Program-made: the position numbers and the translations under genes
Shown: in pieces, positions 36,696-45,323 of the stretch
Position numbering within the stretch: the stretch's first letter is position 1
How the letters are laid out: every line of letters starts with the position of its first letter
Notes under the pieces: generated by a model
What the model saw: only the letters and a program-made list of their open reading frames with translations
What the model was told of the DNA's origin: nothing
The model's database searches: none
Source: an uncultured Thomasclavelia sp.
Lineage (GTDB): Bacteria > Bacillota_I > Bacilli_A > Erysipelotrichales > Coprobacillaceae
Assembly (NCBI RefSeq): GCF_944324745.1
Contig: NZ_CALUXO010000011.1
Span: 1 to 47,113 of the forward strand
DNA: 47,113 nt
Reading direction: 5' to 3'

Positions 36696-37136
36696 TTACT
36701 CTAATATCGATGTACAGTGCGGACATCTAGTTGCTTCGTTGGCTATCTCTTCTTTACAATAAGGACAAACTTTAACTTTAATAACTTTTTCTTCACTTTC
36801 ATTACTGATTTTAGCTTTAATGCTATCGTTAATTGAATTTATTACTTTAACAAGTACAAAAATCACCAGTGCAATTATCAAGAAATTAATAACGGCAGTA
36901 ATAAAATTTCCATAAGCTAGTATTGGAGCATTGCTACCACTTCCTAATTTTAATTTTAAGTTAGAAAAATCAACACCACCAAATATTCCTAAGATTGGTG
37001 CAATAATATCATTGTTTAATGAGGTAACTATTGTCGTAAATGAGCCCCCAATTATAACCCCAACAGCCATGTCAATCACATTGCCTCGTGTAATAAACTT
37101 CTTGAATTCTTCGATAAATGCTTTTCTTTTTTTCAT
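36696..37136 (-). CDS. mscL: Large-conductance mechanosensitive channel with C-terminal zinc ribbon
   Basis: Tension-gated channel of 146 aa. The N-terminal helix EEFKKFITRGNVIDMAVGVIIGG and TM1 are typical, as are the loop FSNLKLKLG and TM2 (YGNFITAVINFLIIALVIF). After TM2 a basic linker leads to CPYC-x10-CPHC (Cys124, 127, 138, 141), a zinc ribbon replacing the usual helical bundle of E. coli MscL. The channel releases solutes on osmotic downshock; the ribbon may stabilise the pentamer or bind a partner. Confidence 0.95.
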   Translation of the reverse strand: MKKRKAFIEEFKKFITRGNVIDMAVGVIIGGSFTTIVTSLNNDIIAPILGIFGGVDFSNLKLKLGSGSNAPILAYGNFITAVINFLIIALVIFVLVKVINSINDSIKAKISNESEEKVIKVKVCPYCKEEIANEATRCPHCTSILE

Positions 37137-37210: not shown

Positions 37211-38467
37211 TCATTTTTCAAAAAAATATGGTTCATACATTCGTTTTAAAGTTCTGACGACTTTATTACTATCATCCTTAGCAATTAAAACATCGTATTT
37301 ACCAGGAATACTTCCAAAAGTAACGATCTTGCTGGCATTGATCTGTTGCTTTAAATACTCATTCATATTAGCTCTAGTAGCATTAATATCATAGATTTTT
37401 AGATAATAATAACCAGGATAATCAGTTGATGGATATTTTAAGATCTTTAAATCGTCAAATTCTTTTTTCAATGCCATTTCTATTTGATCAATTATTTCTT
37501 GATGATCAATTAACATTATATAAACAACATTATCATTATTATTAGAGTGTTGTTTAATATAATTTCGATAAGGATTCTTTTTTAATTGCTGATATATGTT
37601 TAATTCAGCTTCATTTTTAAAATCACCATAATAGATTATTAAACGATCATCAATAATTTCATTACTAAAATAATTAACTTCATATTGCATCAAGAATGAT
37701 TTTAATTGCTTAGCTGTTTGCGGTTTAATGGCAATAACATATTCAAAATGATTTTCATTGATATTATATAAAACCGCCCCATCCATTGCGATAACTGGTA
37801 AATTTAACTTAATGCCACCTAATACTTCCATAATACTAGCCGGGGTTCTTAAAGAAGATACCGTGAACTTAATACCATCATCTAACATTCTTTTTAATTC
37901 TATTTGACTATATGGTGTTAATGTTTCACTTATAGTAAGTAGTGTTTCATCTAATCCTGATATAAACAAGATATCATTTCTTTTATGATAAGGGATTCGA
38001 AACCGATTAACTAAAACAGCAACCACAATTCCAATAATAGTATCTAGAACACGGTTAAACACAAAAATCAACGGGTTAACATCAGTAATATGATTAATTG
38101 TAATACTTAAAAATACGACACATGAAAAATAGGACGCTTCTTTTTTATTAATTAAAATCGTAGTATATAAAACCGCAATAATTAATACTGCTGAAATAAA
38201 ATAATATGTTACTTCATTAAACAAACCTAGATATATCTTCATAGCTACAACTAATAATCCATATATCGCACCAATAAAAGTACCTAAAATCCTTTGCCGT
38301 GCCATTTGATAGCTGTTAGCTACAAATGGTCGCATACACCATAAAGCTGCAATAGCACTATAAAATGGGGTTCCAGTTTCCCCTCTAATAACATAAATGA
38401 CAAAACATAAAATAACCGCAACGCTCGATTTAATTATCCTTAGTCCTGGTAATGGTATTTTTTTCAT
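37211..38467 (-). CDS. FUSC/aromatic-acid-exporter membrane domain fused to a degenerate HAD (Cof-type) domain
   Basis: A 418-aa fusion. Residues 1-155 hold about five to six TM helices of the FUSC/ArAE type (YSAIAALWCMRPF, RQRILGTFIGAIYG, NRVLDTIIGIVVAVLVNRF). Residues 163-418 follow a Cof-type HAD-IIB pattern: ILFISGLDETLL is motif I, FTVSSLRTPAS motif II, PVIAMDGAVLY the cap entry and IVTFGSIPGKYD motif IV. The nucleophile Asp is Gly171 and the motif IV GD is GS (386), so catalysis is probably lost and the domain may sense a phosphometabolite. GGAGGG precedes the ATG. The gene is monocistronic; its substrate is unknown. Confidence 0.8.
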   Translation of the reverse strand: MKKIPLPGLRIIKSSVAVILCFVIYVIRGETGTPFYSAIAALWCMRPFVANSYQMARQRILGTFIGAIYGLLVVAMKIYLGLFNEVTYYFISAVLIIAVLYTTILINKKEASYFSCVVFLSITINHITDVNPLIFVFNRVLDTIIGIVVAVLVNRFRIPYHKRNDILFISGLDETLLTISETLTPYSQIELKRMLDDGIKFTVSSLRTPASIMEVLGGIKLNLPVIAMDGAVLYNINENHFEYVIAIKPQTAKQLKSFLMQYEVNYFSNEIIDDRLIIYYGDFKNEAELNIYQQLKKNPYRNYIKQHSNNNDNVVYIMLIDHQEIIDQIEMALKKEFDDLKILKYPSTDYPGYYYLKIYDINATRANMNEYLKQQINASKIVTFGSIPGKYDVLIAKDDSNKVVRTLKRMYEPYFFEK

Positions 38468-38547
38468 ATTCCCTCCATCAATAATTATTTATTAAGTTGA
38501 AACTATCTTATCGTGCTATAATTATTCTGTCAAGAATAACACTAAAA

Positions 38548-38574
38548 AAGCAGTAAGCTAGGAACTTACTGCTT
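38548..38574 (-). terminator. Terminator of the Bce-type operon
   Basis: AAGCAGTAAG pairs with CTTACTGCTT around a 7-base loop, followed on the minus strand by TTTTTTAG. It includes part of the permease stop codon. Confidence 0.85.
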
Positions 38575-43080: not shown

Positions 43081-43106
43081 AAATACTAAGCGTCTGCTTA
43101 GTATTT
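43081..43106 (-). terminator. Terminator after the phosphodiesterase gene
   Basis: AAATACTAAGC pairs with GCTTAGTATTT around a 4-base loop, followed by a T-rich tract on the minus strand. The stop codon (43098-43100) lies in one arm. Confidence 0.85.
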
Positions 43107-45212
43107 TGGATAACCACTATCTTGATAATAATAATATCGATACTTCTTGTCCAAAAATTGATTAACTGCTGTTTTACCACGATTAGGATAATTAGTTATA
43201 ATACCACTAACTCCCATATCAAGATATTGTAACATTTTATCAGTTGTATCAACTGTCCAGACATATACTGGTGTTATATTATAATTTGCTTTTTCAATGA
43301 AGTTGACAGTAGCCCGATTTTCTTCAATTGCCAAAAAATCAATATTTAGATTCCATAATGAAATATCTAAATCACCGGCACTACCATAAATACAATAACC
43401 GACCCACCATTCTGGATGAACTTGCTGCAAATAAGAAACAACATCATAATCTAATGACATGAAAATAGCTTGCTCTTCAAAATCATTTTCTTCAATTATC
43501 TCAATAACTGTTTGTGCTAATATTTCACCATCACAATTTTCAGTCTTTAATTCTACTAATAAACCTACTTCTAAATCATCATCCTTCATTTTCTCAATAA
43601 TTTGATCAAGGGTATTAATTTTATCAGTATAACCATTTTGCGATACTTCAATATCTGTCAACTGTTTAGCTGGCGTTTCATTTACTTTAAGATTGACACC
43701 TGCTAAGCGCGATAAATCATTGTCATGAACAACCATGACTTGATCATCACTGGAAAGCTGAACATCGATTTCGGCATAATCGGCACCATTTTCATCAGCA
43801 GCAGCAATTGCGCTATATGTATTTTCAACACCATAACGACTGCCCCGATGTCCAATTACCCAAGGTTGGTGCAGCATTGTCGCCGGTTCTAGATAAGCAA
43901 CGATAATCAACAATGAAATACCAATCAAAACAAAAGAGACTAACCGGGGATAGCGATTATAAATTTTAGAACGATTTAAAATATTATTAATTATCCGATA
44001 GGGTAAAAACAACCATGACTTACTCTCTTTGATCGTTTGTTTATTCTTATTTTGTTCATAGTGATTAATTATACTGGCAATACAATACATAATAATCACT
44101 ACAATTAAAATCATACATAAAATATAGATTGAATTAGGGAAAAGATACGTAATTACCAGCAACAATACACTCCAGAAAACAATATTAATAACTCCCCAAT
44201 GCTTTTGATAAAAATTATTTTGAAAAATATATTTATCCAGTGACTGATAAATAATATTTCCATGTATTTTAGCTTCTAACACCGTCTCATCAAAAGCCTG
44301 ATTAAAACTATTATCGATGTTGACCGTGACAATCGCTGAATCATAATCATCGACAATTTTAATAATCACCAGATAAAAAACTATCATAAGTACGATTAAA
44401 GCAATACATGTAATTAAGTATTGTAATAAATAAATTCGAAAACGTGATGATATGATTAGATTTCTTAAAAAGAATCGATTAAAATCACTATTTTTAATGA
44501 TGGCATTTGACAACAATTTTCCTAGTCCCCATTCAATTAAAACAAAGCCACCAACATTTACTAATAATATCAATCGTTGTTTAATTGTCAGATGACGATG
44601 AATATCCAAATTAGTTTTAAAGGCTTTAATAAAGCTTTCATGTTTTAAAATCATAATTACTGGAACAAATAACAGCAACAAATATAAGCCATAACAAAAT
44701 AAATAAAAAATAATAATTAAAATATTTCCACCAATTGTCAACTGCAATTCTCCCGTAACAAAATTTGGAATTGAAAGACTAGGAACAAAGGAATTAAGAT
44801 AACCAATATGCACTAATGGCAATAAGAGTAAAAAATATAATCCAGCCAAAATAAAACTGGGGTTTTTTAAACATTTAAGATTTAAAAGCGATGATTTCAT
44901 GACTTCATAGATTCGAAATTCAATTTTTCGGTAACTTAAAGTAACGATATTAATTAGTACACTTATTTCATAGCCAACTACTATTAATGTTCCAATAAAT
45001 AGTAGTAATATTATTAAAATTCCCTGAAGATTCAAAAAATCAAAAACGATATTTAAATTAAACGCACCACCATGTGACTTTTCATTTAAATAAATTTGGA
45101 TTATTTTATTGAATAATGGCGTGATAATAATGATGATACCTAGTTTATAAACAAATTCGAATTTCAATATTTTGATAAACAGTAACCAAAATCTTTTAAT
45201 CTTTTTAATCAT
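43098..45212 (-). CDS. Membrane-anchored glycerophosphodiester phosphodiesterase (GDPD)
   Basis: A 704-aa fusion. The first 450 residues have about eight to ten TM segments of the GDPD-associated membrane domain (YfjD/GdpD type). The C-terminal GlpQ domain faces out: GHRGSRYGVENT (from about 454) with the catalytic His, YAEIDVQLSSDDQVMVVHDN with the metal-binding Glu/Asp and the second His, and ELKTE. Such enzymes hydrolyse glycerophosphodiesters from lipids or teichoic acids. ATG 45212 is 7 bases after GGAGG; a TTG at 45215 is less likely. Monocistronic. Confidence 0.92.
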   Translation of the reverse strand: MIKKIKRFWLLFIKILKFEFVYKLGIIIIITPLFNKIIQIYLNEKSHGGAFNLNIVFDFLNLQGILIILLLFIGTLIVVGYEISVLINIVTLSYRKIEFRIYEVMKSSLLNLKCLKNPSFILAGLYFLLLLPLVHIGYLNSFVPSLSIPNFVTGELQLTIGGNILIIIFYLFCYGLYLLLLFVPVIMILKHESFIKAFKTNLDIHRHLTIKQRLILLVNVGGFVLIEWGLGKLLSNAIIKNSDFNRFFLRNLIISSRFRIYLLQYLITCIALIVLMIVFYLVIIKIVDDYDSAIVTVNIDNSFNQAFDETVLEAKIHGNIIYQSLDKYIFQNNFYQKHWGVINIVFWSVLLLVITYLFPNSIYILCMILIVVIIMYCIASIINHYEQNKNKQTIKESKSWLFLPYRIINNILNRSKIYNRYPRLVSFVLIGISLLIIVAYLEPATMLHQPWVIGHRGSRYGVENTYSAIAAADENGADYAEIDVQLSSDDQVMVVHDNDLSRLAGVNLKVNETPAKQLTDIEVSQNGYTDKINTLDQIIEKMKDDDLEVGLLVELKTENCDGEILAQTVIEIIEENDFEEQAIFMSLDYDVVSYLQQVHPEWWVGYCIYGSAGDLDISLWNLNIDFLAIEENRATVNFIEKANYNITPVYVWTVDTTDKMLQYLDMGVSGIITNYPNRGKTAVNQFLDKKYRYYYYQDSGYPKY

Positions 45213-45323
45213 CAAATCGCCTCCAATAATGATATTCTATCATTATTACCACCTTTTTTTAATTAATATTCTTTAAAAATTTCTTAAAGAAACTAAAAAG
45301 AAGGAAGTTCCTTCTTCTTTAAA

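Follow-up and report, generated by a model that had tools for sequence, protein, structure and literature searches.

The window, a 47,113-nucleotide stretch of DNA from an uncultured Thomasclavelia sp., carries on its minus strand a gene for a protein in which a six-helix membrane domain of the FUSC/ArAE_1 type (residues 1-158) is fused to a HAD-IIB domain of the Cof type (residues 163-397; Table 1). The gene starts with ATG, with GGAGGG located three bases to its 5' side. Pfam profiles matched both halves above the curated cut-offs, with FUSC_2 at residues 30-153 (E 1.5e-12, 48.2 bits, cut-off 25.6), ArAE_1 at residues 8-155 (E 1.5e-9, 38.6 bits, cut-off 22) and Hydrolase_3 at residues 169-385 (E 6.1e-18, 65.9 bits, cut-off 20.9). 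The NCBIfam profile of the Cof subfamily, TIGR00099, gave 41.9 bits, far under its cut-off of 137, as expected for a degenerate Cof member. Assembly error or an isolated mutation is ruled out as the source of the altered active site described below, because the closest fusion, 66% identical and encoded by a second genome of the genus, a Thomasclavelia MAG, has Gly and Ser at the corresponding positions. An initial annotation had described the product as a FUSC membrane domain fused to a dead HAD domain; Pfam, Foldseek, VIA-align and the motif alignment all agree, and the strand, the conservation of the active-site loss and the ALMT kinship of the membrane half are points beyond that description.

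Table 1. Features of the FUSC-HAD fusion gene and its upstream flank, in window coordinates.
Feature	Position	Strand	Evidence and remarks
Terminator-like hairpin, after the upstream FtsX-type permease gene	38548..38574	minus	12-pair stem and T tract
Promoter-like site TTGACA-17-TAAGAT, before the fusion gene	38505..38533	minus	consensus match only
FUSC/ArAE_1 - pseudo-HAD fusion gene	37211..38467	minus (38467 -> 37211)	418 codons; ORF, Pfam, full-length homologues
Membrane domain, six helices, ALMT-like	37994..38467	minus	residues 1-158; FUSC_2/ArAE_1, model pLDDT 89.4, AtALMT1 Z 14.8, Foldseek
Arg59, aligned with ALMT9 pore Arg143	38291..38293	minus	HMM alignment; 63/63 fusions
Arg139, aligned with ALMT9 pore Arg226	38051..38053	minus	HMM alignment; 62/63 fusions
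Cof-type HAD-IIB domain without catalytic Asp	37214..37981	minus	residues 163-418; Hydrolase_3, Foldseek, VIA-align
Degenerate motif I (FISGLDET)	37943..37966	minus	residues 168-175; alignment to 20 intact free-standing HADs
Gly171 at the nucleophile position	37955-37957	minus	alignment to free-standing HADs
Motif II Ser205 and Arg207, both retained	37847..37855	minus	alignment
Conserved cap signature S/N-P-Y-R-N-Y (SPxRNY), new	37559..37576	minus	residues 298-303
Lys357, replacing the invariant Glu of free-standing HADs	37397..37399	minus	alignment
Degenerate motif IV (GS for GD)	37310..37315	minus	residues 385-386

There is no support for an operon shared with the FtsX-type ABC transporter genes upstream: a terminator-like hairpin and a promoter-like site lie between the genes, and the neighbors of homologues differ. 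Promoter-like matches show no excess in the region (18 found vs 19.5 expected). The mscL gene lies 75 bases downstream of the fusion gene (36696-37136, minus strand) and encodes a 146-aa MscL with a zinc-ribbon-like C-terminal tail (CPYC...CPHC), for which zinc-ribbon Pfam matches fall below the cut-offs. Another minus-strand gene in the window (43098-45215) encodes a 705-aa glycerophosphodiester phosphodiesterase with a GPDPase_memb membrane domain, an ordinary architecture.

Elsewhere in its subclade (Thomasclavelia G008, Butyrivibrio and other Lachnospirales), the fusion gene adjoins an amino-acid ABC importer with a binding protein that most resembles PEB1, an aspartate/glutamate protein. 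A Cytidylate_kin2 gene is found at most of these loci, and a CP_ATPgrasp/Alpha-E/transglutaminase/AstE-AspA cluster at several, in more than one gene order. These neighbors are a hint, to be taken as a lead, that the cargo may be acidic amino acids or their derivatives. At four loci (L067:2152-11951, L066, L196 and L201), the fusion gene sits inside or beside a group comprising the PEB1-like importer, Cytidylate_kin2, CP_ATPgrasp, Alpha-E, transglutaminase and AstE/AspA genes, the order and completeness of which differ among the four. In the genome of the window, the CP_ATPgrasp, Alpha-E and transglutaminase genes sit on another contig. Co-occurrence of the CP_ATPgrasp/Alpha-E cluster with the fusion within the order was not significant (two shared genomes, p = 0.18), and a functional link on that basis was dropped, although the genes are adjacent in several Lachnospirales loci.

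Membrane half and plant ALMT channels

Modeled alone (52 sequences), the membrane half reached a pLDDT of 89.4, and its first ten Foldseek matches were all ALMT structures (AtALMT1, GmALMT12 and AtALMT9 chains). Match probabilities were 1.00 for ranks 1-7 and 0.98, 0.99 and 0.77 for ranks 8-10, and the next match stood at 0.11. Because the Foldseek E-values are weak (best 0.012, none below 0.001), the ALMT likeness leans jointly on the break after rank ten, on VIA-align, which placed residues 1-158 of the full model on AtALMT1 (Z 14.8, rmsd 3.7 over 158 residues), and on a profile of 52 membrane halves, which by sequence only found GmALMT12 (E 0.0028) and AtALMT9 (E 0.0086).

Two pore arginines of ALMT9, R143 and R226, correspond to Arg59 and Arg139 when positions are counted by hand on the profile alignment. 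The only one of 63 fusions to lack Arg139 is L181, a protein considered further below. The third pore arginine, R200, is Ser, Ala or Thr in the fusions, a difference from ALMT9. All tested R226 mutants of ALMT9, as well as R143E/N, abolish currents (PMC11842843). Basic residues lie mainly on the N-side loops (10 vs 2 in the window protein, with an N-side excess in 63/63 fusions), so both ends, and hence the C-terminal domain, should be cytosolic. ALMT dimers have a regulatory cytoplasmic domain (PMC11842843).

The window protein thus shares with plant ALMT malate channels (AtALMT1, AtALMT9, GmALMT12) a FUSC-like domain of about 158 residues and six helices, two key pore arginines and a predicted cytosolic C-terminal domain. 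In ALMTs the C-terminal domain is a helical bundle, whereas here it is a HAD domain, so the protein, although possibly ALMT-like in action, is not classed with the ALMTs, and its channel role is a prediction. By curated cut-offs, the membrane half is a member of the bacterial aromatic acid exporter family 1/FUSC_2 (PF06081, PF13515), to which the window protein adds a C-terminal pseudo-HAD domain. The label "efflux protein" in the initial annotation can accordingly be sharpened to an ALMT-like membrane half in which two pore arginines are retained. To our knowledge, no mechanism is agreed upon for half-size FUSC/ArAE proteins from Gram-positive bacteria; the fusion links them to structurally solved ALMT channels and names pore residues.

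HAD half: fold, active site and constraint

The whole-protein AlphaFold2 model, built from an alignment of seven fusions, had a mean pLDDT of 80.7 and values close to 90 over extended parts of the HAD half. Foldseek against the PDB returned Cof-type and related HAD phosphatases exclusively as top matches (TM0651, 1nf2, E 2e-11), and VIA-align superimposed residues 164-393 on Cof-type HADs (Z 19.7). Across residues 163-397, the resemblance is far too strong for chance. The Hydrolase_3 match and this alignment place the domain in HAD-IIB, with a Rossmannoid core and a C2B cap. The comparison with Cof phosphatases proposed at the outset therefore came out in favor of a fold retained despite motif loss, and the possibility that the C-terminal region is not HAD-like is ruled out by Pfam, Foldseek and VIA-align alike.

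Loss of the motif I nucleophile and of the motif IV acid, both read initially from the window alone, was confirmed by alignment to free-standing HADs. Motif I reads FISGLDETLL in the window protein, as against F/Y-x-S-DLDGTLL in free-standing relatives, with Asp173 retained; motif IV reads TFGSIPGKYD as against xFGDNxND, with Ser386 at the acid position. Asp occupies both positions in 20/20 free HADs. Other features of an active Cof phosphatase are present, namely the motif II Ser/Thr (Ser205) and the basic residue of motif III, which at position 365 is Arg for Lys, a conservative change. Ser or Thr is found at position 205 in 62/63 fusions, and Arg207 in 47/63 fusions and 20/20 free HADs. The window protein therefore resembles Cof-type HAD-IIB phosphatases (TIGR00099; TM0651, YidA, BT4131) in fold, cap type and motif II/III remnants, and differs from them in the absence of the nucleophile and motif IV Asp and in the changes Glu357 to Lys and Asn229 to Asp.

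Conservation of the dead motif among homologous fusions was counted in 63 less redundant fusions against 20 free-standing HADs. The catalytic set is incomplete in 62/63 fusions and in 0/20 free HADs; all five catalytic residues are present in L181 alone among the fusions and in every free HAD. At the nucleophile position, 33 fusions have Gly and five have Asp, the rest having Ser, Pro, Asn, Glu, Ala and others; in motif IV, 32 have Ser in place of the acid and five have Asp. In L179, Asn replaces both Asp and the active site is otherwise intact. Both Asp (DxD and (G/S)D) are present in the Lachnospiraceae proteins L066 and L067, but Val replaces the motif III Lys. When the HAD tree was computed with the catalytic columns removed, these two proteins fell inside a clade of Gly171 proteins. 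Given this position and the lost Lys, their Asp residues are likely secondary, which rules them out as proof of an active ancestor.

The dead HAD domains are under purifying selection. Nei-Gojobori dN/dS of the HAD half was 0.03-0.28 in 15 of 16 pairs with finite dS and 0.40 in the remaining pair, mostly similar to the FUSC half of the same pairs (0.03-0.24), though these values are rough since dS is near or above 1 in several pairs. In one Erysipelotrichales genus (pairs L040/L041 and L042/L043), values of 0.22 and 0.40 for the HAD half compare with 0.04 and 0.14 for the FUSC half. Within a core set of 37 fusions, picked with the tree already in view, Arg301 of the cap is present in 37/37 (0/20 free HADs), and Asn302 and Tyr303 of the cap and Met368 are also fixed, being rare or absent in free HADs. 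Position 357 is Lys in 97% of the core fusions and Glu in 20/20 free HADs, and position 229 is fixed as Asp where 19/20 free HADs have Asn. Fixed residues that differ from those of free HADs are the pattern of a re-used domain, not of decay. Judging by where these segments lie in HAD enzymes, the new conserved residues would line one pocket.

Spread and origin of the fusion

The fusion is not confined to one genome. In total, 71 distinct fusion proteins were aligned, and five loci were added later (L178-L182, of which L178 and L180 are near-identical). Within the genus, the fusion was found in 2/9 genomes. Full-length fusions also occur in several Erysipelotrichales genera, in other Bacilli and in 35 of 295 sampled Lachnospirales genomes, as well as in Clostridium sulfidigenes, Anaerotignum lactatifermentans, Butyrivibrio, an Acholeplasmatales MAG and a Spirochaetales MAG. 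Plasmid records gave partial matches only, none covering more than 80% of the fusion protein. At L169:1517-2591 (genome G800), the fusion is split across two reading frames, representing either a broken gene or a sequencing error.

With long-branch rows excluded, a single branch of the HAD tree separates the fusions other than L181 from 19 free HADs (SH-aLRT 98). In the HAD tree made without the catalytic columns, L181 itself falls among the free HADs (98). In the FUSC tree, one clade (96) unites 62 fusions with six FUSC-only proteins, and L181 clusters with the other FUSC-only proteins (96). An intact active site in a homologue had been named beforehand as evidence against a dead domain. L181 does have a fully intact site, but it groups with unfused proteins in both trees, and on that ground seems to have arisen separately, by fusion to a live phosphatase. 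Most simply read, the trees would mean that the FUSC and HAD families were fused twice, independently, but a single origin was not rejected for the HAD half (AU test, p = 0.318). The L181 gene (L181:487-1794) encodes an intact Cof active site and a pore without the otherwise near-universal Arg139. FUSC-only proteins of Butyrivibrio fibrisolvens and Pseudobutyrivibrio relatives are nested within the fused clade, which points to later loss of the HAD half in Pseudobutyrivibrio/Butyrivibrio.

Putative regulatory role and comparison with known systems

We give somewhat better than even chances to the proposal, drawn from sequence and structural models, that the window protein exports organic anions or forms a channel for them, as a small bacterial representative of the FUSC/ALMT kind whose cytosolic regulatory domain is a built-in pseudophosphatase. 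Like ALMTs, it would function as a dimer; both ends would lie in the cytosol, and anions would pass along Arg59/Arg139. The HAD domain, in which the Mg2+-binding acids are lost and the basic residues Arg207, Arg301, Lys357 and Lys/Arg365 are kept or gained, would bind a cytosolic anionic metabolite, at a first guess a phosphorylated one, without hydrolyzing it, and binding would alter the pore gate or its assembly. The dead domain probably regulates the pore and does not cut phosphate, because the fusion, nearly always with a dead site, has been kept in dozens of other anaerobes; the regulator role suggested initially is plausible on this conservation, and sensing of a phosphate compound is a hypothesis. 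Three points count against the proposal: the nested FUSC-only proteins, which imply that the pore can do without the HAD domain; the strong divergence and weaker constraint of the HAD half in one Erysipelotrichales genus; and residual chemistry that L066 and L067, with both Asp present, may have. A broader claim, that a widespread ALMT-like pore family is gated by a pseudophosphatase reading phosphorylated metabolites, with the domain joined at least twice, once live and once dead, is tentative and rather improbable as a whole.

Conservation of the dead domain would also be expected if the HAD half were a scaffold without a small ligand, tying two or more subunits of the pore together or bringing in a partner protein, and the new fixed cap patch SPxRNY does lie outside the catalytic motifs. 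We regard a scaffold as unlikely, since Arg207, Gly230, Pro224 and Thr/Ser205 are fixed as in the enzymes, with the change at position 229 alongside, which fits a used pocket better. Still less probable is that the domain is a relic of an accidental fusion, decaying after enzyme function was lost. Decay would fit the later disappearance of the entire domain from Pseudobutyrivibrio/Butyrivibrio, the marked divergence and weaker constraint of the HAD half in some Erysipelotrichales and the split frame in G800, but frames are open in more than 70 distinct proteins, dN/dS is low, and the group-specific fixed residues are unlike those of enzymes. We hold it very unlikely that the domain still processes a phosphorylated substrate, whether through a different mechanism or in some lineages only. 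The intact site of the L181 fusion, the DxD and (G/S)D motifs of L066 and L067 and the wide retention of the motif II Ser/Thr and Asp173 speak for such activity; the window protein, however, has neither nucleophile nor motif IV Asp, and L066 and L067 lack the motif III Lys and lie inside the Gly171 clade, where their Asp look secondary.

A pore regulated by a pseudophosphatase domain would have partial counterparts elsewhere. Plant TPS proteins have conserved TPP (HAD) domains, in some proteins without catalytic residues (PMC1769515), and both these and the SPP-like domain of sucrose-phosphate synthase are HAD phosphatase-like domains fused to another protein (PMC1769515, PMC4493782); their partners are glycosyltransferases, unlike the membrane pore of the window protein. 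PRL pseudophosphatases regulate CNNM Mg transporters (PMC10040874) and so also pair a transporter with a pseudophosphatase, but as separate proteins and with a different phosphatase fold. For ALMTs, an origin by addition of a regulatory C-terminal domain to a FUSC pore has been proposed (PMC10490231), and the fusion parallels it. For the FUSC-dead HAD fusion itself, we found no describing paper in the open-access literature; within that scope, the initial remark that the architecture had not been seen described holds.

If a phosphorylated metabolite does gate the pore, anion efflux in anaerobic gut bacteria would be under direct metabolic control. The compact putative regulator domain is also found in graded natural states, with an intact site in L181, a nearly intact one in L179 and a dead one in most fusions, and is absent in Pseudobutyrivibrio; this gradation offers a setting to study how a phosphatase might turn into a sensor. 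The C-terminal slot of FUSC pores can hold other domains as well, as indicated by L171:333-1604 of Lachnospirales genome G662, which encodes FUSC_2/ArAE_1 followed by a HutD-like C-terminal domain (Pfam HutD just at its cut-off).
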